Source: Methanomicrobiales archaeon HGW-Methanomicrobiales-2
Lineage (GTDB): Archaea > Halobacteriota > Methanomicrobia > Methanomicrobiales > Methanoculleaceae
Direction of reading: 5' to 3'
Assembly (NCBI GenBank): GCA_002839645.1
Contig: PGYL01000035.1
Span: forward strand, 1-39,278
DNA: 39,278 bases
Shown here piece by piece: positions 2,865 through 19,722 of this stretch. The position numbers and the translations under genes were made by a program. Position 1 is the first letter of the stretch, and every line of letters starts with the position of its first letter. Under the pieces are notes generated by a model, which was not told the DNA's origin, did not search any database, and was given only the letters and a program-made list of their open reading frames with translations.

Positions 2865-3392
2865 GTGTGCGGGGTCCGCCTCTTCCTCCTGATGGCTTTC
2901 TCCGCTCTCCTCATCATGCCCTGCTCCGTCTCGGGCGCGACGCCCCCGCTGCCCCCTCTCCTCACGGTCTCGGTATCGAACGATACCCTCTCCCCCGGGG
3001 AGAACCTGAGCGTCTCCGCCACCTGGAGCCGGGACGAGAGCTTCTACCGCCCCCCACAGAGCGTCGACGTGCAGATCTACAGCGTCCCCGGAGGGTCGTT
3101 CGTCGCAGGGTATACGGTCCCGGAGGATGAACGCGCGGTCTTTGACGGTGACACCCGGCACTTTCGGGGGGTGATTGCCTCCTCGGAGCTGCCGGCGGGG
3201 AGGCTCCTCCTCGTCGTCGTCGACCCGGTCTCCGGCGCCGACGCCCGGGTCCCGATAAACGTCACGGAGCCTGGCCCGGATTTCCCCAAAATCCAGGTGC
3301 AGGGATATCTCGATGCCGTCTTCTTCCTGGTTGTGGGGGTCCTGCTGGTCGTCCTCGGCGCCGGTCTCGTCCTGCTGCTCAGGCGCCCGTGA
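2865..3392 (+). CDS. Exported, C-terminally membrane-anchored surface protein
   Basis: A 175-residue protein with an N-terminal signal segment (LFLLMAFSALLIMPCSVSGA, cleavage probably after SGA near residue 25), a beta-rich extracellular region of about 115 residues and a C-terminal hydrophobic helix (DAVFFLVVGVLLVVLGAGLVLLL) followed by RRP. The middle, with LTVSVSNDTLSPGENLSVSATW and a later NVTEPG, looks like one Ig-like or CARDB-like beta-sandwich with N-glycosylation sequons, as in many methanogen envelope proteins. The GTG start at 2865 is preceded by AAAAGGT at a suitable distance. A terminator follows at 3453. The binding partner is unknown; it has no operon partner. Confidence 0.75.
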   Translation: MCGVRLFLLMAFSALLIMPCSVSGATPPLPPLLTVSVSNDTLSPGENLSVSATWSRDESFYRPPQSVDVQIYSVPGGSFVAGYTVPEDERAVFDGDTRHFRGVIASSELPAGRLLLVVVDPVSGADARVPINVTEPGPDFPKIQVQGYLDAVFFLVVGVLLVVLGAGLVLLLRRP

Positions 3393-3531: not shown

Positions 3532-6180
3532 GTGATACCTGAACCGGCAGCAAAAAAGTTCCTCTACTGGTGCGACCAGTGCAACGTCCCGCTCATCGGG
3601 CGCACCTGCGCCTGCAAAACCAGAGTCAGGGAGATACCTCTCCTTCAGCCGCACGACGTCCGCCCTGCCCTCGCGGCGGATATGGCCCTGATCCGGCGCC
3701 TTCTTGCCGAACAGTTCGGCGATATCCCCCTGCCCCACGTCGTGCTCTTAAACAAGACCGGCGGCGTCGACCGGGCGGACCTCGTCATCATGCACGGCGA
3801 CCGGTTCGGCTGGCTCTCGTTCGACCCGATCGCCCGGAAGTTCAGCCTCGATATCGCCCCCGAAGCGCTCCCGTACATCCTGCAGCACGCAACCCGGGGC
3901 ATCATTGACCTTGAGGCCGAGCCCGCCGTGAGCGCCCATAAGGGCCGTATCGGTGGGAAACGATTCTCCCTGGCGACCGCCGTCCCCGACGGAACGGTCA
4001 TCGTCTCCTATAAGAACCGGTTCGGGACCGGCGTCGTCAAGGACGGGCAGGTCAGGGTGAAGGAACTCGTCTCTGTTGCGCCCCGCACCCGGCCCGACCC
4101 GGACTGGGACGTGGTGATCGAGAAGAACCGCTACCACTTAAAAAACCTCGAGCGCAACGCCGTCCGCACCATCAAGAAGCACATGAACGACCGGCCGTGC
4201 GTGAACGTCTCGTTCTCCGGCGGCAAGGACAGCACCGCCGTCCTCCACCTCGCCCGGAAGGCGGGGGTGGAGAAGGCGTTCTTCATCGATACCGGTATCG
4301 AGCTCCCCGAGACGGTGGCGTTCGTGGAGTCGGAAGGCGTCGAGATCGTCCGGAAAGGCGGCGACTTCTTCCAGGCGGTCGAGAAGGTGGGGCCACCGGG
4401 CAAAGACCACCGCTGGTGCTGCAAGCTCCTCAAGCTTCATCCTTTAAAGCTCTACCTCGCCGAGCTCGGTCCCTGTGTCACCATCCAGGGGAACCGCTGG
4501 TACGAGTCCTGGAACCGCGCCGACCTCGACGAGACGAGCCAGAACCCGGCAAACCCCTTGCAGTTGAACGTCTCGCCGATCCGGAACTGGCGGGCGCTCG
4601 AGGTCTTCCTCTACCTCTGGTGGCAGAAGGCCCCCATGAACCCGCTCTACGAGAAAGGCCTTGAGCGGATAGGCTGTTACCTCTGCCCGGCGGTGCTCGA
4701 GAGCGAGTACGAAGGGCTCCGGGAGATGCACCCGGAACTGACGGGACGCTGGGACGAATTTCTGGTCAGGTGGGGGGAGAAGACCGGGATGCCGGACGCC
4801 TACCACCAGTGGGGGCTCTGGCGGTGGCGGGCGCTGCCCCCGAAGATGCGCGAAGTCTGCAGGGACCGGGGCATCGCTGTGAACGAGGACTTCACCCTGC
4901 AGGAAGCCCCGGAGAGCCGGACTACCCCGGCCCAGAAGATCGTGGAGATGGCAGCAACGAAGACTCTAAAAACCCCTGAACCGGCAGGAAACGAGTTTAC
5001 CCCCGACGAGATCCGGGAGGACTTCCCGATCCTCGGCGACATCATCTATCTGGACAACGCCGCGACGAGTTTCTCGCCGGAGCCGGTGGTGGAGGCACTC
5101 GTCGAGTTCGAGCACCGCTACCGGGCCAACGTCGGGCGGGGCGTTCACCGCCTGACCCGGATCGCGTCGCAGCGCTACTGGCATGCCCACGAGAAGGTGG
5201 CCCGGTTCATCGGCGGCGAGGCGGGGGGCACGGTCTTTACGAAGAACGCCACGGAATCGATCAACATGGTCGCGCAGGGCCTCTCCTGGAAGCCGGGCGA
5301 CCGCGTGGTGACCACCATTCTCGAGCACCACTCAAACCTTCTCCCCTGGAGAACGCTTGAAAAACAGGGCGTCGCGCTCGACGTGATCGGGATCGACGCC
5401 GACTACTCGCTCGACCTTGCCGCGCTCGAGGAAGCTCTGGCCGGAGGCAGCGTCCGGCTCGTCGCCGTCACCCATGCCTCGAACGTCCTCGGCGTGACGA
5501 CGCCGATCCCCGAGATCGTCCGGCTCTGCCGGAAGCACGGCGCCCTCCTTCTTGTGGACGCCGCACAGTCGCTCCCGCACATGCCGGTGAATGTAGCGGA
5601 CCTCGGCTGCGACTTCCTCTGCTTCTCGGGGCACAAACTGTTCGGGCCGACCGGGACCGGCGTCCTCTGGATGCGGGATCTCCTCCTTGAACCGTCGGTC
5701 CTCGGCGGCGGCATGGTCACGAGCGTGACGGCGGAGGGGTATGTGCCGGCAGAGGGCTACCAGCGCTACGAGGCCGGGACGCCGAGCGTCGGCGGCGGGA
5801 TCGCGCTCGGCGTCGCCGTGGACTATCTCTCGGTGATCGGGATGGAGAAGATCCACCGGCACGAAGAGCGCCTGACCGCCCGGCTGATCGCGGGGCTCTC
5901 CCGGGTCGACGGAGTCACCGTCTACGCTGCGAGAACGCCCGAGGCCCGGATCGGGGTCGTTTCGTTCACCATCGACGGCGTCCACCCGCAGGAGGCCGCG
6001 CAGATGCTCGACGAGGAAGCGGATATCCTGGTACGGTCGGGGCACCACTGCTGCCAGCCGCTCATGGATTACCTGAACCTCCCTGAGGGGACGGTCCGGG
6101 CGAGTCTTGCAGCCTACACGACGGAGCACGAGATCGACCTCCTCATCGCGGCCGTCGGCGAGATCAGCCGGGGCCGGTAA
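3532..6180 (+). CDS. Fusion: zinc-ribbon / PAPS-reductase-like ATP pyrophosphatase / class V cysteine desulfurase
   Basis: An 882-residue fusion if GTG 3532 is the start; the frame is open upstream but crosses a terminator, so the earlier ATG at 3313 is unlikely. Residues 1-30 carry CDQC (C14, C17) and CAC (C26, C28), a zinc-ribbon; about 35-200 is a PUA-like/uncharacterised region; the adenine-nucleotide alpha-hydrolase domain has the P-loop SGGKDS (229-234), RWCCK (C296, C297) and CYLC (C382, C385), suggesting a bound Zn or Fe-S cluster. Residues 489-882 are a SufS-like cysteine desulfurase: SGHKLFG with the PLP lysine K702 and SGHHCCQP with catalytic C840. The desulfurase makes a persulfide from cysteine; the ATP-dependent domain could activate a target for sulfur insertion. 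True PAPS reduction is unlikely given the fusion. The gene converges on fdhD, a sulfurtransferase needing a desulfurase, so a functional link is inferred. tRNA thiolation is the main alternative. Confidence 0.85.
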   Translation: MIPEPAAKKFLYWCDQCNVPLIGRTCACKTRVREIPLLQPHDVRPALAADMALIRRLLAEQFGDIPLPHVVLLNKTGGVDRADLVIMHGDRFGWLSFDPIARKFSLDIAPEALPYILQHATRGIIDLEAEPAVSAHKGRIGGKRFSLATAVPDGTVIVSYKNRFGTGVVKDGQVRVKELVSVAPRTRPDPDWDVVIEKNRYHLKNLERNAVRTIKKHMNDRPCVNVSFSGGKDSTAVLHLARKAGVEKAFFIDTGIELPETVAFVESEGVEIVRKGGDFFQAVEKVGPPGKDHRWCCKLLKLHPLKLYLAELGPCVTIQGNRWYESWNRADLDETSQNPANPLQLNVSPIRNWRALEVFLYLWWQKAPMNPLYEKGLERIGCYLCPAVLESEYEGLREMHPELTGRWDEFLVRWGEKTGMPDAYHQWGLWRWRALPPKMREVCRDRGIAVNEDFTLQEAPESRTTPAQKIVEMAATKTLKTPEPAGNEFTPDEIREDFPILGDIIYLDNAATSFSPEPVVEALVEFEHRYRANVGRGVHRLTRIASQRYWHAHEKVARFIGGEAGGTVFTKNATESINMVAQGLSWKPGDRVVTTILEHHSNLLPWRTLEKQGVALDVIGIDADYSLDLAALEEALAGGSVRLVAVTHASNVLGVTTPIPEIVRLCRKHGALLLVDAAQSLPHMPVNVADLGCDFLCFSGHKLFGPTGTGVLWMRDLLLEPSVLGGGMVTSVTAEGYVPAEGYQRYEAGTPSVGGGIALGVAVDYLSVIGMEKIHRHEERLTARLIAGLSRVDGVTVYAARTPEARIGVVSFTIDGVHPQEAAQMLDEEADILVRSGHHCCQPLMDYLNLPEGTVRASLAAYTTEHEIDLLIAAVGEISRGR

Positions 6181-6215
6181 GGCCCCTGGCGTTTCTCACA
6201 TGGAATTCGTCATTA

Positions 6216-6318
6216 GAAGCCGCGAAGAACGCGAAGTTGGTAGATAAGTGTTGACAGTCCTCTTCGCGGCTTCGTGTGAGGCCCATCACCACTATATTGT
6301 TGACTCTCACGCGAAGCC
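6216..6318. terminator. Two overlapping hairpins between convergent genes
   Basis: GAAGCCGCGAAGA (6216-6228) and TCTTCGCGGCTTC (6261-6273) are perfect 13-bp inverted repeats. The right arm overlaps the left arm of a second pair, GCTTCGTGTGAG (6269-6280) with CTCACGCGAAGC (6307-6318), one mismatch. The two stems cannot form at once. Lying between the fusion gene and fdhD, they probably act as a two-way transcript end, though neither has a long T-tract. Confidence 0.45.
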
Positions 6319-6330
6319 CGGCGGGAGTGC

Positions 6331-7062
6331 TTACGCCCCTATCCCCGCAATCCTCTCCGCGTGCGTATACACCGCCATCTCCGGCGTCCCGGCGGCCCCG
6401 ACGATGCAGAGCCCGGTCTCGTCTGCGATCTCGACGGCAAGGGCGGTCGGCGGTCCGGTGGAGACCAGCACCGGGATGTTCGCCACCAGGCATTTCCGGA
6501 CCATTTCGGAGGTGACCGGGCCGCTGCTGACGGCGAACGTCCGGGAAAAGTCAAGGGCTTCGCGCAATCCCCGGCCGATGACCCGGTCCAGGGCGTTGTG
6601 CCGGTCGAGGTCTTCGGCGCGAGCGACGATGCGGCCTCCCGTGGCAAGAGCAACCGCATCGACCGCGCTGTGTGGGGGGAGAGCGGCGACGGCGCTCTCG
6701 ATCTCCGGGACGGTGACCGCGAGGTCGGAGTCGATCGCGGGCAGTTTCTGCGTGTCGATGTAGGAGACGGCCCCCCCGCACCCGGAGAGGATGGTCTTTT
6801 TTACGCTGACCCTCTTGAAGATGTTCTTCGTGAGGACGCTTATCCGGTTCTCCTCGATCCTGACCGATTCGATCTCCCCGGCGCTCCGGATGATCTCTTC
6901 GGTGTAGAGGTAGCCGGTGATGAAGTCTTCAAACCCGCCGGGGCTCAAGGCAACGGTCGCCAGGTGCCGGCCGTTGACGAAGACCGCCACCGGTGCCTCT
7001 TCTGCGGCATCCCGGGTTATGCTCCCGCCGCCGATGCGGATACAGGCAATTTTCTTGAACAT
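6331..7062 (-). CDS. fdhD: Formate dehydrogenase accessory sulfurtransferase FdhD
   Basis: A 243-residue FdhD. In E. coli, FdhD takes a persulfide from IscS and passes the sulfur to the bis-molybdopterin cofactor before insertion into formate dehydrogenase. Diagnostic segments: FEDFITGYLYTEEII (44-58), SGCGGA near residue 93-98, DLDRHNALDRVIG near 153-165, SSGPVTSEMV and a C-terminal TGLCIVGAAG. Only the first cysteine of the CxxC pair is present; the second is alanine. The ATG has GAGGG five nt upstream. It is last on the minus strand after fdhA, fdhB and the VOC gene, 46 nt downstream of the latter, and faces the desulfurase fusion. Confidence 0.92.
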   Translation of the reverse strand: MFKKIACIRIGGGSITRDAAEEAPVAVFVNGRHLATVALSPGGFEDFITGYLYTEEIIRSAGEIESVRIEENRISVLTKNIFKRVSVKKTILSGCGGAVSYIDTQKLPAIDSDLAVTVPEIESAVAALPPHSAVDAVALATGGRIVARAEDLDRHNALDRVIGRGLREALDFSRTFAVSSGPVTSEMVRKCLVANIPVLVSTGPPTALAVEIADETGLCIVGAAGTPEMAVYTHAERIAGIGA

Positions 7063-7941: not shown

Positions 7942-9180
7942 TCACTTGAACACGTTGAAGATCTGGTCGCTACCCGTCTCGAAGAGCCGCTGGCGTTCCG
8001 CCTTCTCTTCAACGAGCGCGAGGACCGGGAGCTCCATGTCCACACCAGGGGTGTGACCGAACATCTTCTCCATGTCCACCTGCAGGGCGTGCATGTAGAG
8101 CGAGTTCGCGATCTCCATCGGGCAGTTCTCCTCGCACTGGCCGCAGTTGACACAGGAGTCCGCCACGTGAGCGTAGCGGATCAGGTGGAACATGAACGGC
8201 ACGGGGAGTACGCCCGGCGGGACCAGGTAGGGCTTCTTCGTGCTGCATTCGTTGCAGTAGCAGATCGGGCAGTTCTCGATGCAGGCGTAGCACTTGGTGC
8301 ACCGGCTCGAGTCCTCCATCATCTTCTGGAGACGCTCCTTGCCTTCCCCGAGCCCCTCGAAGTAGCGCGCCCGCCACTTGTCGCCGAGCTTCAGCATCGC
8401 GTTCTCGACCTTGCCGCGGATCTCGATACCCTTCGGGTTCGCGGGCTCGGTGGCGACCGCTCCGGCCTTGACAGCCGCGTTGAGGAGGTTTGCACCCTTC
8501 TCGGAGCAGACCTCGACGAAGGTGGCCTTCCCGGCTTTTTCCCCAATAACGCCCCAGTTACCGCAGGCGAGATCCGCCTGGCGCGGGACCTTCATCTTGC
8601 AGCGGCGGCAGTTGCCGCGGCGGCCGAACCCTTCTTCCTCGAGTTCGTCCATCGAGATGCCCTTGTGCTGGCCGTCCTTCGTCACGACGATGAACTGGCC
8701 CTTGTCGATCTCCTCCTTGACGATATCGTCGGGGTTGAACCCGAACTTCTCGGCGATCATCTTCCGGGCAGAGACCGGGCTCACAGAGCCACCGCAGTTG
8801 ACGCCGATCAGGAGGAGGTTGTCCAGGTTGACCTGGTTGCGCTTTGCGAGCTCGTAGATGCCCATCGCGTCGCAGCCTTTCACCGTGACTCCGAGACGCA
8901 TGTCTCCGGCGCCGTCGAGGTACTTCTTGATCAGCTTCGAGAGCAGGAGCGTCCCGCAGTGGAGCGAGCCTGCTGTCTGTGCGATCTCGGCGGGGTCGGT
9001 GACGATCGTGGGAACCGCATCGTAGAGGTCCACACCCTTCTTAACCGCAAGGACGGCGTCGACCATCTTGTTTTCGAGGGCGTACTTAAGGAGCCCGGTC
9101 ACCGCACCGCCGCACTCCGCCACTTTGGCGAGATCGGCGTTCGTCGTCCAGGCGTATACCATATCTCCTTTTCCTGCCAT
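7942..9180 (-). CDS. fdhB: F420-reducing formate dehydrogenase, beta subunit
   Basis: A 412-residue FdhB of the F420 hydrogenase/dehydrogenase beta (FrhB-like) family. It carries FAD, takes electrons from FdhA through Fe-S clusters and reduces coenzyme F420. Seen: the N-terminal WTTNADLAKVAECGGAVTGLL typical of this family, VKGCDAMGI near residue 105 and GNCRRCKMKVPRQADLACG near 195-215 (cluster cysteines of the FrhB core). The C-terminal part has two ferredoxin-type 4Fe-4S motifs: CTKCYACIENCP with further CYCNEC (294-312) and CVNCGQCEENCP (343-354). The start ATG abuts the fdhA TAA stop with no gap, so the two are translationally coupled. In hydrogenotrophic methanogens this enzyme supplies F420H2 and can join the heterodisulfide reductase complex. 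Confidence 0.96.
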   Translation of the reverse strand: MAGKGDMVYAWTTNADLAKVAECGGAVTGLLKYALENKMVDAVLAVKKGVDLYDAVPTIVTDPAEIAQTAGSLHCGTLLLSKLIKKYLDGAGDMRLGVTVKGCDAMGIYELAKRNQVNLDNLLLIGVNCGGSVSPVSARKMIAEKFGFNPDDIVKEEIDKGQFIVVTKDGQHKGISMDELEEEGFGRRGNCRRCKMKVPRQADLACGNWGVIGEKAGKATFVEVCSEKGANLLNAAVKAGAVATEPANPKGIEIRGKVENAMLKLGDKWRARYFEGLGEGKERLQKMMEDSSRCTKCYACIENCPICYCNECSTKKPYLVPPGVLPVPFMFHLIRYAHVADSCVNCGQCEENCPMEIANSLYMHALQVDMEKMFGHTPGVDMELPVLALVEEKAERQRLFETGSDQIFNVFK

Positions 9181-11250
9181 TTACTGCACCCCCGTGATCT
9201 TCTCGACGGCAACGGCACTGTGCTTCAACTCCGGCATCTTGGAGAGCGGGTCGAGCGCGGTGTTCGTCAGCTGGTTCACAGACCCAACCCCACCGAAGTG
9301 CATCGCCATCATCAGCACGCCGGGTGCGACCTCATCGGTCACCCGCGCGAGTGCCTCCGCCTGCCCGCGCCTGCCCTTGAGCCGGATCTTCTCCCCGTTC
9401 TGGATCTTCATCCGTGCCGCGTCCTCGTTGTTGATCTGCACGTAGGCTTCCGGCACCTCCTGGTGGAGGATCTTCGACCGGCCGGTCTGGGTCCGGGTGT
9501 GGTAGTGGAAGATCAGACGTCCGGTCATCAGGGTGAACGGATACTCGGCGTCGGCGACCTCCGCAGGCAACCGGTTCTCAATCCCGAAGAAGTGTCCGAG
9601 ACCATCGGCCGACGAGAACTTCTCGCGGTGCAGGATGGGGGTTCCCGGGTGCTCAAGGGTCGGGCAGGGCCAGTGGACGGACTCGGGCTTCTCCATCCTC
9701 TCGTAGGAGATGCCTGCCATCGACGGGGTGACCCGCCGCATGTCGTCCCAGATGTCCTCCGGCGAGTTGAAGTCAAAGCCGTTGAGATTGAGCTTGTGGG
9801 CGAGGTCGACGAAGATCTGCCAGTCCTCCTTCGAGTCGCCGGGAGTCTGGACGGCCTTACGGATACGGTTGACACGCCGCTCGCCGCTGGTGAACGTCCC
9901 GTCCTTCTCCGCGAAGGATGCGCCGGGGAGGATGACGTCGGCATACTGTGCCGTCTCGGTCATGAAGATGTCCTGCACGACCAGGAAGTCGAGTTTCTCA
10001 AGCGACCGCATGACGTGGTTCGAGTCAGGGTAGGAGACGACCGGGTTCAACGCGAAGATGTACATCGCCTTGATCGGGTCGCCGCACTGGGTGATCTGTT
10101 CGGTCAGGGTCACGCCGTAATTGCTTGCAAGTCCGGTGACGCCCCAGAGTTCCTCCATCCGCTTCCGGGTGGCGTCATCCTCGCACTTCTGGTAGCCGGA
10201 GAAGACGTTCGGGTAGGCACCCATGTCGCAGGCGCCCTGGACGTTGTTCTGTCCACGGAGCGGGTTGACACCGACACCGGGTCTCCCGACGTTGCCGGTG
10301 AGCATCGCGAGGTTTCCAAGCGACCGGACGTTGTCCGTGCCGGTCGTGTGCTCCGTTATGCCGAGGCAGTAGATGATCACCGCGTTGTTCGCGTTGGCGT
10401 AGATCCGCGCGATCTCCTTGATCCGCTCGGTGGGGACGCCGGTGATAGACTCGACCTCCGCATAGTTCTTGACGACGTTCCACAGGTCGTCATAGCCTGT
10501 GGTCCTCTTCTCGATGAACTCCTTGTCATGGAGGTTCTCCTGGATGATCCAGTACATGATCGAGTTGATCAGGGCGATGTTCGTCGAGGGGTTGTAGCGG
10601 ACGTACTCATCGGCCAGACGCGCCGTGGGCGTGTAGCGCGGGTCGCAGACGATGACCTTCTTGCCGGCTTTCTTCGCCTGGAGAACCCGGCGGCCCGCAA
10701 GCGGGTGCGCCTCAATCGAGTTCGCCCCGATCATGAAGATGACATCGGCGTTCTTGACGTCCTCGAAGGGGTTCGTCGCGGCACCGGAGCCAAACGAGAG
10801 CGAGAGCCCTGCAACGGACGGTCCGTGGCAGATGCGCGCGCAGTTGTCGATGTTGTTGGTCTTGAAGGCCACCCGCGCGAGTTTCTGCATGATGTAGCAC
10901 TCCTCGTTCGGAGTCCGGCACGAGACCTGGAAGCCGAGGGATTTGGGCCCGTACTTCTCGCTGGTCTCCTTGAACTTCGAGGCGATGAGATCATAAGCCT
11001 CGTCCCAGGAAGCTTCCTCGAACTTGCCGTTCTTCTTGATGAGGGGCGTTGTCAGCCGGTCAGGGCTCTGGACGAACTCCCAGCAGGTTGCTCCCTTGGG
11101 GCAGAGCTTGCCCTCGTTGATCGGGCTCCTCTTGTAGGGTTCGACCCCCACGAGTTTGCCGTCGTTCACCACGAGGTTAAGCCCGCACCCTACACCGCAG
11201 TACGGACAGGTCGTTGGAACATAGCGTAATTTTCCGTTGGTTTCTGTCAT
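9181..11250 (-). CDS. fdhA: Formate dehydrogenase, alpha (catalytic) subunit
   Basis: A 689-residue molybdopterin oxidoreductase, the normal length for methanogen FdhA. It oxidises formate to CO2 at a Mo- or W-bis(pyranopterin) centre. The N-terminal 4Fe-4S motif is C15-x2-C18-x3-C22-x27-C50. The active site CARICHGPSVAGL has cysteine C141 where E. coli FdhF has selenocysteine, so this is the Cys form; H142 is the conserved catalytic histidine. The C-terminal molydop-binding domain contains LMTGRLIFHYHTRTQTGRS and DEVAPGVLMMAMHF. No twin-arginine signal is present, so it is cytoplasmic. GGGAGA lies upstream of ATG 11250. A TATA box at 11341-11350 and a leader inverted repeat lie upstream. fdhB follows without a gap. 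Confidence 0.97.
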   Translation of the reverse strand: MTETNGKLRYVPTTCPYCGVGCGLNLVVNDGKLVGVEPYKRSPINEGKLCPKGATCWEFVQSPDRLTTPLIKKNGKFEEASWDEAYDLIASKFKETSEKYGPKSLGFQVSCRTPNEECYIMQKLARVAFKTNNIDNCARICHGPSVAGLSLSFGSGAATNPFEDVKNADVIFMIGANSIEAHPLAGRRVLQAKKAGKKVIVCDPRYTPTARLADEYVRYNPSTNIALINSIMYWIIQENLHDKEFIEKRTTGYDDLWNVVKNYAEVESITGVPTERIKEIARIYANANNAVIIYCLGITEHTTGTDNVRSLGNLAMLTGNVGRPGVGVNPLRGQNNVQGACDMGAYPNVFSGYQKCEDDATRKRMEELWGVTGLASNYGVTLTEQITQCGDPIKAMYIFALNPVVSYPDSNHVMRSLEKLDFLVVQDIFMTETAQYADVILPGASFAEKDGTFTSGERRVNRIRKAVQTPGDSKEDWQIFVDLAHKLNLNGFDFNSPEDIWDDMRRVTPSMAGISYERMEKPESVHWPCPTLEHPGTPILHREKFSSADGLGHFFGIENRLPAEVADAEYPFTLMTGRLIFHYHTRTQTGRSKILHQEVPEAYVQINNEDAARMKIQNGEKIRLKGRRGQAEALARVTDEVAPGVLMMAMHFGGVGSVNQLTNTALDPLSKMPELKHSAVAVEKITGVQ

Positions 11251-12273: not shown

Positions 12274-13077
12274 ATGGAACTCTTCCCTATCGGGCTCGTG
12301 CACTCAAGCATCTGTTCCAGGAGCGATATGCCGGTACAGGGCGTCTGCGCCGAGATCGAGGTCTTTCCCGGGTACGCCGGGGCGCTCTCCGGCATCGAGG
12401 AGAGTTCGCACCTGATCCTGATCTGCTGGCTGCACGAGGCGGACCGGAGAGTCCTCAAGGCGGTGGCCCGGAAGGTCTCGGGCGACCTCCCGGAGAAGGG
12501 TGTCTTCTCCCTCCGCTCACCGGTGCGGCCAAACCCCCTCTCCGTCTCGGTGGTGCGGCTGTGCGGCGTGCGGGAGGGGCGGTTTCTTCTACTCGCGAAT
12601 GTGGACCTGATCGACGGGACGCCGGTGATCGACCTCAAACCCTACCAGATCGGGTGGGATTGCGTCTTCTCCGCGACCGGCCATGACCGGACGGAAAAGA
12701 TCCGGAAGATGAGCCCCGGCGAATACCGGGAGGGCCTCATCCGCGAGGCCGTGAACTATCACGGGGAACTCTGCCCGGGCGTGGCGCTCGCAGTGCGGGT
12801 CGCGGAGGCGGCGACGCGCATCTTTGGTTGCGACCTACGGCTTCCGCAGGTCTCGGTCACCCTCGGCGCCGATCCCTGCATCGCCGATGCACTCATCGGG
12901 ATCACCGGTGCGAGCCCCGGAAATCGCCGGCTGGGGTGTTCCGGGACAAACCGCTACGTCTTTGCCGGCTCTGGAAAGGAGGCGGTCTTCTGCCTCCTCT
13001 CCATGCCGGAGAGTATCGAAGCGATCCTTGCAGAGGGCGAGGCGTCACTCTTTGACTGCGAGATCCACTCCCGGTAG
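12274..13077 (+). CDS. TrmO (TsaA/UPF0066) domain fused to an FmdE domain
   Basis: A 267-residue two-domain protein. Residues 1-140 are a TrmO/TsaA-type domain: MELFPIGLVHS, GVFSLRSPVRPNPLSVSVVRL and the closing DLIDGTPVIDLKPY. In E. coli TrmO this domain methylates t6A37 of tRNA using SAM. Residues about 150-267 are an FmdE-like domain: NYHGELCPGVALAVRVAEAA with the His-x3-Cys site, ADPCIADALIGITGASPGNRR and CSGTNRYVF. The tRNA role is known for stand-alone TrmO; why it is joined to FmdE is not. It follows the other FmdE gene and precedes moeA on the same strand, suggesting a task around the molybdenum/tungsten cofactor or its enzymes. Confidence 0.85.
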   Translation: MELFPIGLVHSSICSRSDMPVQGVCAEIEVFPGYAGALSGIEESSHLILICWLHEADRRVLKAVARKVSGDLPEKGVFSLRSPVRPNPLSVSVVRLCGVREGRFLLLANVDLIDGTPVIDLKPYQIGWDCVFSATGHDRTEKIRKMSPGEYREGLIREAVNYHGELCPGVALAVRVAEAATRIFGCDLRLPQVSVTLGADPCIADALIGITGASPGNRRLGCSGTNRYVFAGSGKEAVFCLLSMPESIEAILAEGEASLFDCEIHSR

Positions 13078-13179: not shown

Positions 13180-15048
13180 ATGTCACGCCGGTACCTGAAT
13201 CTTACCCCGCTCGCGGAAGCGCTCGCGGCGATGCGGCAGGCGTTTCCCCCCCCGGGTCACGCCGAGACCGTGCCGCTGCACCTCTCGGTCGGCAGGGTGA
13301 CGGCCGAACCGCTGTATGCAGAGTATTCTATTCCCGGGGCCGATATCGCGAGGTTCGACGGCTACGCGGTGAAGAGCGGGGACACCCTGGGAGCGCAGGA
13401 CCAGCGGCCGCTGCCTCTTCTTGCGTCTGCTCGCATCAATACCGGCGAGGTGCTCCCTGTGTCGTTTGACGCCGTCGTCATGATCGAGGATACCTGGGAT
13501 GAAGGCGGCATACCCTGGGTCAGGAAGTCCGCCGCGTCCTGGCAGCACGTCCGGCATGCCGGTGAGGATATCCGGGCCGGCGAACTCGTCCTCCCGAAAG
13601 GTCACCAGATCCGGCCGTTCGATCTCGGTGCGCTCGCGACCTACGGCATCACCCAACTCGCCGTCCGGTCGGTCCGGATCGGGATCGTCCCGACGGGGAG
13701 CGAACTCGTGCCGCTCGGTGTAGCGCCCGCGCCCGGCCAGACGATCGAGACGAACACCCTCATGGCGGAGGCCTACCTCTCCCGGATGGGAGCGACCTGC
13801 CGCCGTTACGGGATCGTTCCCGACGATCCGGATCTGATCCGGAATGCGGTGCAGACGGCGGTCGCCGAAAACGACCTCGTCATCCTCTCGGCAGGCTCTT
13901 CGGCCGGCACCCGGGACTTCTCCCGGGATGTCGTCGGCGCGCTCGGGGAGATTATATTCCACGGCATCGCGGTCCGGCCGGGAAAACCGGTGCTGCTCGC
14001 GAACGTCGGCGGCAAGCCGGTCCTCGGGATGCCGGGGTATCCCGTCGCCGCACAGACCGCTCTCCGCGAAGTTGCCGGGAATCTGCTCGCATGGTGGGGG
14101 CTCTCGCCGCTCCCGGGCGGGGAGATGGACGTCCGGCTCTCAAGGAGACTGGCGTCCGACCTGGGGTTCGACGAGTTCGTCCCGGTATCGGTCGGGCGGG
14201 TCTCCGGCACCTGCTGGGCGACCCCTCATCCCCGGGGGGGCGGCATCCAGATGGCGGTGGTCCGGGCGAACGGCTACCTTCATATCCCCGCCGCTCGCGA
14301 GGGGATCGAGGCGGGCGAGGAGGTGCACGTCCGGCTCACCGTCCCGCCGCCCGAGATCGCCCGCACGGTTGTCTGTGTCGGCCAGCGCGATCCCGCCCTC
14401 GCCGAACTCAGAAACCGCCTCTCGGAGACCGGCTACCTGCTCCACTGCTGCAACGCCTCAACGATGGGGGCAGTGCTGGCCGTGCGGGCGAATACCTGCC
14501 ATGCTGCTTCGATCTCTCTCCCGGAGACCGAAACAGCCTGGGACAACCAGGTGCTCCGGTACCTGCCGGACGTGGATCTCCTGCGGGTGCAGGTGGCCCG
14601 GACGGAACTGGGCATCGTCTCGGCCGGGCCCCTCGATGCCGGGAGCCTTGCATCGCTGCGGTTCGTCAACCGTCCGAAAGGCACGGCGGCACGGATCTTC
14701 CTCGATGCGTGGCTGGATCGGCAGGGTATCGATGCCGGCCGCATCGCCGGATACGAGCAGGAGGTGCGGACGGCCGGTGCCGTCGCCGCGGCCGTCGGCA
14801 GCGGGTTTGCGGACGCAGGTGTCTGCCCGGCCCCCATGGCACGGGAGGCGGGGCTCCGGTTCACCCTGCTCGGGTACGAGTCGTGCGAGCTCCTGATCCG
14901 GAAGGAACTTGCCGCGGACGACGGCGTCGCAAGCCTCGTCCGGGCAGCCCGGTCACCGGAGTTCCGGGCGTTCCTCCGGTCGGCTGGGAGAGACCGCACC
15001 GATACCGACCCGGCGGGCGGAACCTCGCGGGATGCGCTCCCGGCCTGA
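13180..15048 (+). CDS. moeA: MoeA molybdopterin molybdenumtransferase with C-terminal periplasmic-binding-like domain
   Basis: A 622-residue protein. Residues 1-400 are MoeA, which inserts Mo or W into adenylylated molybdopterin: family marks are SIPGADIARFDGYAV near 50, HAGEDIRAGELVLPKG near 125-140, GIVPTGSELV near 170, SAGSSAGTRDF near 237 and VRPGKPVLLANVGGKPVLGMPGYP near 268-291. Residues about 405-600 form a PBP-like domain (VGQRDPALAEL..., STMGAVLAV, RFVNRPKGTAARIFLD, GVCPAPMAREAGL), similar to molybdate-sensing binding-protein domains. This fusion is common in archaea; the extra domain may sense oxyanion. AAGGAG stands at good distance before ATG. It lies downstream of the TrmO-FmdE gene and serves the nearby formate dehydrogenase. 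Confidence 0.92.
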   Translation: MSRRYLNLTPLAEALAAMRQAFPPPGHAETVPLHLSVGRVTAEPLYAEYSIPGADIARFDGYAVKSGDTLGAQDQRPLPLLASARINTGEVLPVSFDAVVMIEDTWDEGGIPWVRKSAASWQHVRHAGEDIRAGELVLPKGHQIRPFDLGALATYGITQLAVRSVRIGIVPTGSELVPLGVAPAPGQTIETNTLMAEAYLSRMGATCRRYGIVPDDPDLIRNAVQTAVAENDLVILSAGSSAGTRDFSRDVVGALGEIIFHGIAVRPGKPVLLANVGGKPVLGMPGYPVAAQTALREVAGNLLAWWGLSPLPGGEMDVRLSRRLASDLGFDEFVPVSVGRVSGTCWATPHPRGGGIQMAVVRANGYLHIPAAREGIEAGEEVHVRLTVPPPEIARTVVCVGQRDPALAELRNRLSETGYLLHCCNASTMGAVLAVRANTCHAASISLPETETAWDNQVLRYLPDVDLLRVQVARTELGIVSAGPLDAGSLASLRFVNRPKGTAARIFLDAWLDRQGIDAGRIAGYEQEVRTAGAVAAAVGSGFADAGVCPAPMAREAGLRFTLLGYESCELLIRKELAADDGVASLVRAARSPEFRAFLRSAGRDRTDTDPAGGTSRDALPA

Positions 15049-17089: not shown

Positions 17090-18733
17090 TCAGTATGAGG
17101 CGACGATATTTCCGTCCTCATCGAGGAGGTCGTACGGGCCCCCGTCAGGGGGGAACATCCACCGGCCCTCGCCGGGCAGTGCCTGCATAAAGAAGAGCAG
17201 GTCGGCGCCTGTCGCGTCGGAGAGGACCAGATGGTTGCCCTCCACCCGGTAGGACGAGACGCTCGGGAGGAGGTTGAGATACGTGCTCTCCTGCTCCATG
17301 ACGCCCTCCGGGTCGTTGCAGTACATCTTCGTGCTGATGGGCGGTTCGATGGTGATCTTCGTGCCGTCGAGCACGTAGCCGGCCCCGTAGGAGTTGCACC
17401 CGGCGTTCCCGGTGACCCTGCCCTCCGATGAGAATGTCGCGGTGACTGTGGTCCCGGCGATCACCGAGGAGACCGTCTCCCCATTCAGGCTGGAGGACTC
17501 AAGCGTCCACTCCGTCCCGGCGAGCGGGGCCGGCGGGACCTCCTCGGCCTGCACGAAGAAGAGCAGGTCGGTGCCTGTCTCGTCCGTGAGGACCAGGCGG
17601 TCGTCCTCGACCCGGTAGGAGGTGGCATTTCCGAGGAGGGCGAGGTAGGCGCTCTCCTGTCGCATGACGCCCGGCGTCTCGCAGTACATCAGGGTGTTAA
17701 AGAGGGTGGAGACCGAGAGGGTCGTGCCGTCGAGGGTGTACCGGCCGCCGTAGTGGTTGCACCCGGCGTTGCCGCCGACGTTCCCGTCAGGTCCGAAGGT
17801 CACGGTGACGGCCGCCCCCGCAATCACCGAGGAGATCGCGTCCCCTCCGGTAGCGTAGCTGTCAAGCACCCAGTCCGTCCCGACGAGCGGGAGGTCGGGC
17901 GTTTGTGCGGCTTTCTCGAAGACCAGGAGGTCGGCACCCTCGCTGTCGGCGAGGATCAGCCGGTCATCCTCAATCCGGTAGGAGGCGACCTGGGCGAGGA
18001 GTGCAAGGTAGCGGTCCTCCTGCTTCATGATACCCGGCGGTTCGCTGCAGTACATCTCGGTCCTGACGGCCGGCTCGATGGTGAGGAACGCGGCGTCCAC
18101 GGTGTAGCCCGCACCGTAGTGGTTGCACCCGGCCGACCCGCCGACGTTGCCGTCAGCGTCGAAGACCATCGTGACGGCTGTGCCGGTAAGAACCGGTATC
18201 ATAGCGCCGCCCTCGTCGGAGAGGCTTGTGAGCGTCCAGGACGTCCCGGCGAGCGCCGCGGCCGCGGGTCCCTTCACGAAGACGAGCACGTCGGTGCCTT
18301 CCGCGTCGGTGATGATGAGTCGGTCATCCTCGATCCGGCATTCTGCCGCAGAGCCGAGGAGGTCCATGAATCTTGCCTCCTGCTCCATGATGCCCTCGGG
18401 CTCCGTGCAGAGTTTCAGCGTCTGGACAAGCGAGGAGACCGAGAGGGTCGTGCCGTCGAGCCGGTAGTCGCCGCCGTAACCGTTGCACCCGGCGGAGCCC
18501 GTGACCTTGCCGTCAGGGCCGAAGGCCGCCGTGATCTCCGTTCCCGGCAGGACCGGAACGAGCGTGCCGTTCCCGGCGAGGTAGGAGTCGAGGGACCAGG
18601 AGGGCCCCGCAACCGCACCGGGCGTCGACGTGCTCGCCGTGCATCCTGCGGTGATGATTGCCGCCACAACGATGACGAGCAGTGACGCCGTCGCGAGGAT
18701 GTAGTTTCTGTTCCTTCTTCTGTTCGGTGCCAT
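17090..18733 (-). CDS. Exported lipoprotein-like protein with four META (HslJ-like) domains
   Basis: A 547-residue protein. The frame is open to 18976, but MAPNRRRNRNYILATASLL at 18733 begins a clean signal segment (LLVIVVAAIITAGC) ending in a lipobox-like TAGC, so that ATG is chosen. Four META repeats follow at about 45-155, 160-270, 275-385 and 390-500, each with an opening (A/V)GT.W.L, an (S/G)(S/N)AGCN.YG motif, a second cysteine in K(L/M).C or MYC, a (G/R)(I/V)M.QE...L.LL helix and a closing D-R-L...D..G.D-L-L-F strand pair. The regular Cys pair in each repeat suggests one disulfide per domain, fitting an extracellular location. The C-terminal 45 residues are acidic and proline-rich. Function unknown. 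A TATA box at 18761-18770 suggests a short leader. Confidence 0.88.
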   Translation of the reverse strand: MAPNRRRNRNYILATASLLVIVVAAIITAGCTASTSTPGAVAGPSWSLDSYLAGNGTLVPVLPGTEITAAFGPDGKVTGSAGCNGYGGDYRLDGTTLSVSSLVQTLKLCTEPEGIMEQEARFMDLLGSAAECRIEDDRLIITDAEGTDVLVFVKGPAAAALAGTSWTLTSLSDEGGAMIPVLTGTAVTMVFDADGNVGGSAGCNHYGAGYTVDAAFLTIEPAVRTEMYCSEPPGIMKQEDRYLALLAQVASYRIEDDRLILADSEGADLLVFEKAAQTPDLPLVGTDWVLDSYATGGDAISSVIAGAAVTVTFGPDGNVGGNAGCNHYGGRYTLDGTTLSVSTLFNTLMYCETPGVMRQESAYLALLGNATSYRVEDDRLVLTDETGTDLLFFVQAEEVPPAPLAGTEWTLESSSLNGETVSSVIAGTTVTATFSSEGRVTGNAGCNSYGAGYVLDGTKITIEPPISTKMYCNDPEGVMEQESTYLNLLPSVSSYRVEGNHLVLSDATGADLLFFMQALPGEGRWMFPPDGGPYDLLDEDGNIVASY

Positions 18734-18760
18734 ACAACAGGATATGAGCGGGAATGAGTG

Positions 18761-18770
18761 ATAAATGAAT
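18761..18770 (-). promoter_or_regulatory. TATA box of the four-META gene
   Basis: ATTCATTTAT on the minus strand is centred about 32 nt before ATG 18733, supporting that start and a leader of only a few bases. Confidence 0.45.
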
Positions 18771-18975
18771 TGTAGGCTACGAAAAAAATTGAACCTATAC
18801 GCCCTCTGTTCGTCAAATCCGGTGGTTCTGGAGGGAATCGAGGTTTCCGTTGCCCCGTGTCCCCGCCGGGGCTGCACGGGCGGCTCCTCCGGCCACTCTT
18901 GCAGGACTATCCCCGGTACGTGCATGGCATTTATTCGTGGAGGAGAATCATACCGGATGTGGGAGTAGAATTGCA

Positions 18976-19722
18976 ATGGTAGCGTTGATCCTGTTGAGGC
19001 ACGGCGAAAGCCTCTGGAACAGTGAGAATCGGTTCACGGGCTGGACAGACGTGGACCTCTCACCTCGCGGCATAGATGAAGCCCACCGGGCGGCGGAACT
19101 CCTTAAGGAAGGCGGGTATACGTTCCGCGTCGCCTACACCTCCGTGCTGAAGCGGGCCATCCGGACGCTCTGGATCGTCATGGACGACCTCGATCTCATG
19201 TACGTCCCGGTGCACCGGTCGTGGCGGTTGAACGAGAAGAGTTACGGCGCCCTGCAGGGCTTAAACAAGAAAGAGACCGCCGAGAAATACGGTGCGGAGC
19301 AGGTGCACCTCTGGCGCCGGGCATACGACGTGCGGCCACCGCCGCTCCCGTGGGACGACCAAAGACACCCGCGGTTCGACCCCCGCTACGCGGATCTGGA
19401 CCCGGAGAGCCTTCCTGCGACCGAGTCCCTGCACGACACGCTCAAGCGTGTGCTCCCCTGCTGGGAGAGCCACATCACAGAAGATCTCCGGCAGGGCAAA
19501 CCGGTCCTGGTCGCCGCCCACGGCAACAGTCTCCGTGCCCTGGTCAAGCACCTGGACGGGACCCCCGACGACGAGATCGCGGTTCTCAACATCCCTACGG
19601 GTTATCCCCTCATCTACGAACTGGACGGGGACCTGAAGGCCGTGAAGCACTATTACCTGGGCGACCCCGAGGAGATCGCAGCGGCCGCACAGGGCGTGGC
19701 CCGGCAGGCGGGAGCGGGATAG
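18976..19722 (+). CDS. gpmA: 2,3-bisphosphoglycerate-dependent phosphoglycerate mutase
   Basis: A 248-residue dPGM, interconverting 3- and 2-phosphoglycerate. Start ATG 18976 gives [15 protein letters not shown] with the phospho-histidine H9; other signatures are [42 protein letters not shown] near 90-107 and [17 protein letters not shown] near 183-199 with the second catalytic His. Length equals bacterial GpmA (about 250). Most archaea use the unrelated cofactor-independent enzyme, so this gene was probably acquired from bacteria. It stands 75 nt upstream of gap, though gap has its own promoter. In a methanogen it would work mainly in gluconeogenesis and glycogen turnover. Confidence 0.95.

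Follow-up and report, generated by a model that had tools for sequence, protein, structure and literature searches.

The window analyzed here is a stretch of 39,278 nt of contig PGYL01000035.1 from Methanomicrobiales archaeon HGW-Methanomicrobiales-2, and it carries on its + strand (3532 to 6180) a gene that fuses an ATP-pyrophosphatase to a SufS-type cysteine desulfurase and converges on an fdhD gene. The two genes recur as neighbors in all six families of the order Methanomicrobiales, suggesting a sulfur supply dedicated to FdhD, and genome comparisons indicate that the desulfurase half of the fusion is probably FdhD's sulfur donor. The explanation favored here, with moderate confidence, is a bifunctional enzyme whose desulfurase would feed one class of FdhD (class A) in trans and a thiolase in the fused N-terminal half (N-half) in cis. 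The SufS-type half would draw its sulfur from L-cysteine, carry it as a persulfide at residue C840, and pass it to the neighboring class A FdhD, which would use it to sulfurate the bis-pterin Mo/W cofactor. The same persulfide would also be passed to the N-half, which, with its PP-loop, putative 4Fe-4S site, and PUA-like/zinc-ribbon front, would probably adenylate and then thiolate a target, perhaps RNA. The fusion architecture was already known, being described as a "putative APS/PAPS reductase" (adenosine 5'-phosphosulfate/3'-phosphoadenosine 5'-phosphosulfate reductase) in the accessible part of PMC6286981; what is new is the link with FdhD, which was not found in the open-access literature.

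The fusion is encoded by a single unbroken open reading frame (ORF) on the + strand, which opens at an ATG at 3313 and runs to 6180 (955 aa), or gives 882 aa when started at the GTG at 3532. The latter start is plausible, as the equivalent position is the start of many homologous ORFs, and the 882-aa version is used for residue numbering; no strong ribosome site was seen 5' of this GTG. Both PF01507 (PAPS_reduct, E 6e-35) and PF00266 (Aminotran_5, E 2e-120) were found in the frame, confirming the proposal of an earlier note, made from the sequence of this DNA alone, that the two enzymes share one chain. Full-length homologs with 55–92% identity occur order-wide, so the fusion is not a chance product; it is real and conserved across Methanomicrobiales. 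All 199 genomes of the order that were searched gave some match, and full-length fusions were present in all six family codes of the order, the genera with fusion records including Methanoculleus, Methanoregula, Methanospirillum, Methanocalculus, Methanocorpusculum, and Methanolinea. Structure prediction of the full-length protein gave a mean predicted local distance difference test score (pLDDT) of 88, with a variable low-confidence linker joining the halves (4879 to 4995, + strand, approximately residues 450–488; pLDDT <50 at 463–466 and 471–486). A fold search with this model was informative for the desulfurase only, and the N-half was then modeled separately and searched.

The desulfurase domain (Aminotran_5, SufS-type fold; 5044 to 6144, + strand) was recognized both by PF00266 and by the structural model, in which it superimposes on the SufS structure 8kg1 with a Z score of 55.3 and a root-mean-square deviation (rmsd) of 1.6 over 389 aligned residues. 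The catalytic residues named in the earlier note proved correct in the 882-aa numbering: the pyridoxal 5'-phosphate (PLP) lysine K702 lies in SGHK (5635 to 5637, + strand; kept in 114 of 117 desulfurase domains) and the persulfide cysteine C840 in SGHHCC (6049 to 6051, + strand; kept in 112 of 117). The Aminotran_5 fold, PLP lysine, and persulfide cysteine are those of a group II (SufS-type) desulfurase, and SufS and CsdA share them with the fusion (Z approximately 54–55 over approximately 389 residues). Unlike these enzymes, the fusion is joined to an ATP-pyrophosphatase, and its score against the curated SufS model NCBIfam TIGR01979 falls below the cut-off (407.4 vs. 475.1 bits). The active site in its desulfurase subfamily mostly reads HCC, the usual SufS form being HCA.

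Evidence for the link with FdhD comes from 117 loci of 25 genera in which a SufS-type desulfurase is attached to or stands beside the N-half (not counting L135 and L136). The co-occurrence of fusion and fdhD, which had been put forward as a check of the proposed partnership, was observed at a distance of up to 700 bp in 61 of the 117 loci, representing 19/25 genera and 6/6 families. All four gene arrangements were found: the two genes converge in 40 loci and diverge in 4, and in the tandem loci FdhD lies downstream of the fusion in 12 and upstream of it in 5. With 1 to 4 FdhD genes per genome of approximately 2.4 Mb, simple arithmetic puts such adjacency by chance at well under 1%. Of the 56 loci lacking an FdhD at this distance, 47 are flanked on either side by 1 kb of sequence or more, and nine lie too near an end.

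A second line of evidence is provided by four genomes in which the fused desulfurase is degenerate, namely G002 and G038 (K702R, C840D), G121 (C840G), and G175 (K702A, C840G); a fifth altered domain, in G090, belongs to a cut contig. All four encode an intact stand-alone SufS of the same subfamily as the fused domain, located 3–5 bp upstream of a class A FdhD, and these genomes with a dead, replaced fused domain are ready-made natural controls. Likewise, FdhD was the next gene on the same strand in 20/20 of the top-ranked stand-alone SufS loci, which include genomes with a stand-alone N-half or in which no fusion was found (G031, G033, G015). In a FastTree phylogeny of 64 rows, the stand-alone FdhD-linked SufS proteins were nested within the fused desulfurases. 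Forcing the fused domains into one clade was not rejected (p value of the approximately unbiased test, p-AU, 0.363; 41 of the 64 rows used), and the backbone of the second, 41-row tree did not discriminate between a single fusion and later splitting. Recurrent LarE-SufS-FdhD operons were also seen (L261–L264, L266–L269, L272, L276, L277), as were LarE-FdhD operons without SufS in Methanoregula-type genomes.

The third line of evidence concerns the FdhD proteins themselves. Those linked to the fusion, to SufS, or to LarE form one group by tree and motif, class A, with the motif [STA]GCG[GS], and members of the second group mostly lack that cysteine or read SGCVG (ORFs outside 200–420 aa and duplicates were left out of the tree). 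Among genomes at least 90% complete, 31 had neither a fusion nor a stand-alone SufS that could be found; FdhD was detected in 29 of these (33 matches), and none of the 30 sequences that could be classed belonged to class A, the other three matches being without a locus. Class A provides the only PF02634 match in ten genomes (G002, G011, G017, G064, G121, G133, G164, G179, G181, G184), the sole FdhD of other genomes is of the second class, and the two classes thus seem to replace each other. The GCGG-type FdhD of the Methanocorpusculum-type genus g20 was observed in two genomes only (L259, L260). Elsewhere in g20 (L235–L238, L249, L250), frames of approximately 504–522 aa carry two tandem FdhD domains without the GCGG motif. 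Because of the adjacency, the SufS replacement in four genomes, and the co-occurrence of class A with the desulfurase, the desulfurase half is probably the donor of FdhD, as the earlier note had suggested; the genomic support for this part of its proposal is strong, and the transfer step itself is one that we infer. That note had set a role as FdhD donor against a role as a self-contained thiolating enzyme, an opposition that need not hold, since the N-half also occurs without class A FdhD and the desulfurase half follows class A, so that both roles may apply at once.

A different function for class A FdhD was also considered, in which it would be a sulfur carrier from the SufS persulfide to PP-loop ATPases (LarE or the N-half) rather than a Mo-cofactor protein, and fusion plus FdhD would form a self-contained thiolation system. 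The placement of class A FdhD in LarE-SufS-FdhD or LarE-FdhD operons or beside the fusion is consistent with this idea, as is the observation that it stands beside fdhAB only in Methanoculleus-type loci and does not track formate dehydrogenase. On the other hand, MoeB and MoaE are frequent close neighbors, pointing to the Mo/W cofactor, and the ten genomes with class A as their sole FdhD, set beside others relying on the second class, argue for one ordinary FdhD role; a sulfur carrier is therefore considered unlikely. An extension of this idea, in which class A FdhD would relay sulfur from desulfurase to PP-loop thiolase in a new, self-contained system thiolating RNA or a different nucleotide target with DndA-DndC-like logic, in place of a role in formate dehydrogenase maturation, is regarded as slightly less likely still.

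Formate dehydrogenase was examined as a possible common thread of these loci and rejected. A search for its alpha subunit (Fdh-alpha) with TIGR01591 (E 1e-170) in 61 genomes, compared by eye with the presence of fusion or SufS, gave matches in 52, of which 51 were over the cut-off. No match was obtained in G005, G014, G017, and G018 (98–99% complete), all with the fusion and a class A FdhD, nor in G029 (at least 98% complete), which has a split form of the fusion, whereas Fdh-alpha is present in each of the 15 genomes among the 61 that lack the desulfurase. The connection between fusion and formate dehydrogenase drawn previously was thus not borne out. Among the loci examined, fdhBA stands beside the fusion in the Methanoculleus type only, and in Methanoculleus fdhD does adjoin fdhBA, as in the window. 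The Mo/W enzyme served is accordingly not necessarily formate dehydrogenase, and formylmethanofuran dehydrogenase is a candidate.

Several observations weigh against the proposed dual sulfur donor. FdhD was found near the fusion in none of the 24 loci of the Methanoregula-type genus g16 and in none of the 14 loci of g20, the two genera that supply most of the loci lacking a close FdhD. In g16, thiM lies directly downstream of the fusion in 24/24 loci (among L046–L141), usually followed by thiE, and class A FdhD is mostly encoded elsewhere, after larE. Genome G029 has an N-half and SufS side by side, yet its only FdhD is Cys-less, and several fusion-adjacent FdhDs are fast-evolving in the tree. 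The source genome of the window has further desulfurases (L004–L008), so its FdhD need not depend on the fused one. Pfam recognizes no PUA region in the fusion clade (no PUA model match in 42 fusion-clade N-halves). One E. coli study, in the part of PMC6239281 that is accessible, reports that FdhD cysteines are dispensable for formate dehydrogenase activity.

The surroundings of the fusion also allow the reading that the fused desulfurase supplies sulfur generally to a cofactor island (for Fe-S, thiamine, NAD, and molybdopterin), FdhD adjacency reflecting mere clustering of sulfur genes. Such a role would agree with the recurrent neighbors ThiM-ThiE, NadA, ThiI, LarE, MoeB, MoaE, and IscS-IscU (the names ThiM, ThiE, NadA, ThiI, MoeB, MoaE, and IscU, as well as DUF169, were assigned by reading cluster sequences and not by family search). 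For none of these other neighbors, however, is there a gene-for-gene replacement like that at FdhD, separate IscS-IscU pairs exist, and genomes without the SufS type have no class A FdhD, although the other neighbors were not counted systematically. A general donor is therefore rather improbable, and the dual supply of class A FdhD and of the N-half is preferred.

The N-half begins with the zinc ribbon that had been proposed for it, borne out as the conserved pattern C14xxC17...C26xC28 (3571 to 3615, + strand), the four cysteines being kept in 112, 111, 112, and 108 of the 112 loci with sequence there; metal binding is predicted. It is followed by a pre-PUA/PUA-like region (3625 to 4086, + strand, approximately residues 32–185) with predicted strands. 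The fold search of the N-half model gave no match covering the front of approximately 185 residues in one piece. The homologous front region of paralog L136, to which the N-half profile aligns across positions 3–426, matches the PUA model TIGR00451 with 42.5 bits (cut-off 27). The PAPS_reduct/PP-loop ATP-pyrophosphatase domain (4204 to 4692, + strand, residues 225–387) contains the PP-loop motif SGGKDS (4216 to 4233, + strand, residues 229–234), invariant in 33/33 N-halves. The extra cysteine pairs noticed earlier correspond to C296-C297 (4417 to 4422, + strand) and C382-x-x-C385 (4675 to 4686, + strand), both kept in 114/114 of the N-halves having these columns. They form the two halves of an APS-reductase-like ligand set, and would bind a cluster, CC...CxxC being the 4Fe-4S ligands of APS reductase.

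The N-half thus has the fold and the CC...CxxC pattern of assimilatory APS/PAPS reductases. Its model (pLDDT 89) best matched APS reductase 4bwv (Z 16.9, rmsd 3.7, 197 aligned residues; Foldseek E 2e-10), followed, after the APS reductases, by LarE, NcsA, and TtuA at Z approximately 11, among other PP-loop enzymes. The C-terminal nucleophilic cysteine of APS/PAPS reductases sits in CG[I/L]H, and the sulfonucleotide-reductase motif CG[LIVMT]H was found in 0/33 N-halves. Sulfate activation is almost wholly absent from the order, with ATP sulfurylase (PF01747) in 0/61 genomes, CysN above the cut-off in 0/61, and an APS kinase match in 2/61 only (G012 and G018, both g10). Among related proteins, the archaeal PRK13795 family shares the N-half of the fusion, which aligns from end to end, and the fusion carries the desulfurase instead of the rest of the PRK13795 C-terminal part (the model runs to position 667), which we take to be a ferredoxin; the family cut-offs were not reached, the two best models scoring 385 bits against a cut-off of 745 and 298 bits against one of 456. 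These proteins are the putative methanogen APS/PAPS reductases of PMC6286981, where, in the accessible text, the fusion is proposed as an assimilatory APS or PAPS reductase, in which the desulfurase would be an accessory. The fold and the Fe-S ligand pattern agree with that proposal, for which the same text cites biochemistry on M. jannaschii homologs, but it also calls the source of APS/PAPS unclear. Because the nucleophile motif is absent from all 33 N-halves and sulfate activation is almost wholly absent, the label is unlikely, and a reductase is the least probable of the functions weighed here, hardly to be expected.

Judging from these features, the N-half is more likely an enzyme that uses ATP to thiolate a target, perhaps RNA. 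The thiolating role that the earlier note gave as its alternative thus probably applies to the N-half; RNA as its target is a guess, since the PUA model was matched in the paralog and not in the fusion clade. The N-half also appears to have its own job, because it is found without a desulfurase and without a nearby FdhD: stand-alone N-halves L129–L134 lack a desulfurase, with no FdhD in the flanks examined (up to 7 kb), and the same was observed for a second stand-alone group (L368–L377), which has no close FdhD. The conserved dnaK-dnaJ-grpE-purH neighborhood of the latter (names by reading sequences) gave no functional clue for the N-half. In the phylum, the N-half profile matched 68/196 genomes, including 35/35 of the order; in other families it is part of longer proteins, in none of which the SufS-type desulfurase of the fusion was observed.

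The nearest functional models of the N-half appear, by sequence, to be desulfurase-partnered ATP-pyrophosphatases (BrxP, E 1e-37; SspD, 5e-12; DndC, 2e-7) and PP-loop thiolases, and the desulfurase half matched the models of SspA (4e-55) and DndA (5e-53). The systems DndA-DndC, SspA-SspD, and Type-4 BREX desulfurase-BrxP share with the fusion the pairing of a cysteine desulfurase with an APS-reductase-like ATP-pyrophosphatase, and the fusion differs in its single polypeptide, SufS-type desulfurase, and zinc-ribbon/PUA-like front. No dnd, ssp, BREX, or defence partners were recognized among the annotated neighbors, for which no systematic defence (PADLOC) scan was made. The E. coli FdhD-IscS complex and its specificity have been published (PMC6239281, accessible part), and the passing of sulfur from desulfurase to FdhD described there is the same as that proposed here from genomes. 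The archaeal case differs in that the desulfurase is SufS-type, often fused, and gene-adjacent, and FdhD has GCGG and not CxxC. In B. subtilis, as far as the accessible part of PMC5372739 goes, NifZ-ThiI and YrvO-MnmA likewise provide a dedicated desulfurase for one PP-loop thiolase, although encoded by separate genes and with a different PP-loop family. According to the same source, much of the sulfur that methanogens use is thought to come from sulfide and not from cysteine, which bears on how archaeal Mo/W enzymes and thiolases obtain theirs. The conserved, swappable bond between the desulfurase and one FdhD class, together with the natural controls, makes the question of the FdhD donor directly testable, and a protein group now labeled as putative APS/PAPS reductases is argued to be something else.

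In the window, convergence of the fusion on fdhD within a formate dehydrogenase/moeA block was confirmed. The fdhD gene (6331 to 7062, - strand; PF02634 E 5e-52) is of class A by tree and motif (GCGG-type) and has the sulfur-transfer cysteine of the family, its score against TIGR00129 being just under the cut-off (139.3 vs. 140.9 bits). E. coli FdhD carries CxxC, and the window FdhD has one of these two cysteines (residue 95, the single conserved one, in SGCGG at 6772 to 6786, - strand), the second being replaced. In the gap between fusion and fdhD (6200–6330), inspection by eye showed an inverted stretch (CTTCGCGGCTTC / GAAGCCGCGAAG type). Past fdhD, the gene order is a glyoxalase-like gene, an fdhB-like F420-dependent subunit with an extra 4Fe-4S region (7942 to 9180, - strand), fdhA for the formate dehydrogenase alpha subunit (9181 to 11250, - strand; TIGR01591, 883 bits, over the cut-off), and moeA with a C-terminal PBP-like domain (13180 to 15048, + strand). 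The source genome also has a second fdhD, which comes after a stand-alone SufS of the subfamily of the fusion, and a paralog of the N-half that lacks the desulfurase. A third, Cys-less FdhD was found beside an IscS-like desulfurase (L240, 6244–8538 of G000:C38), so that each of the three FdhDs of this genome adjoins a desulfurase. Elsewhere in the window, a fusion of TrmO_N-like and FmdE-like domains adjoins moeA (12274–13077, + strand), and a single protein encoded at 17090–18976 (- strand) contains four META domains recognized by Pfam.

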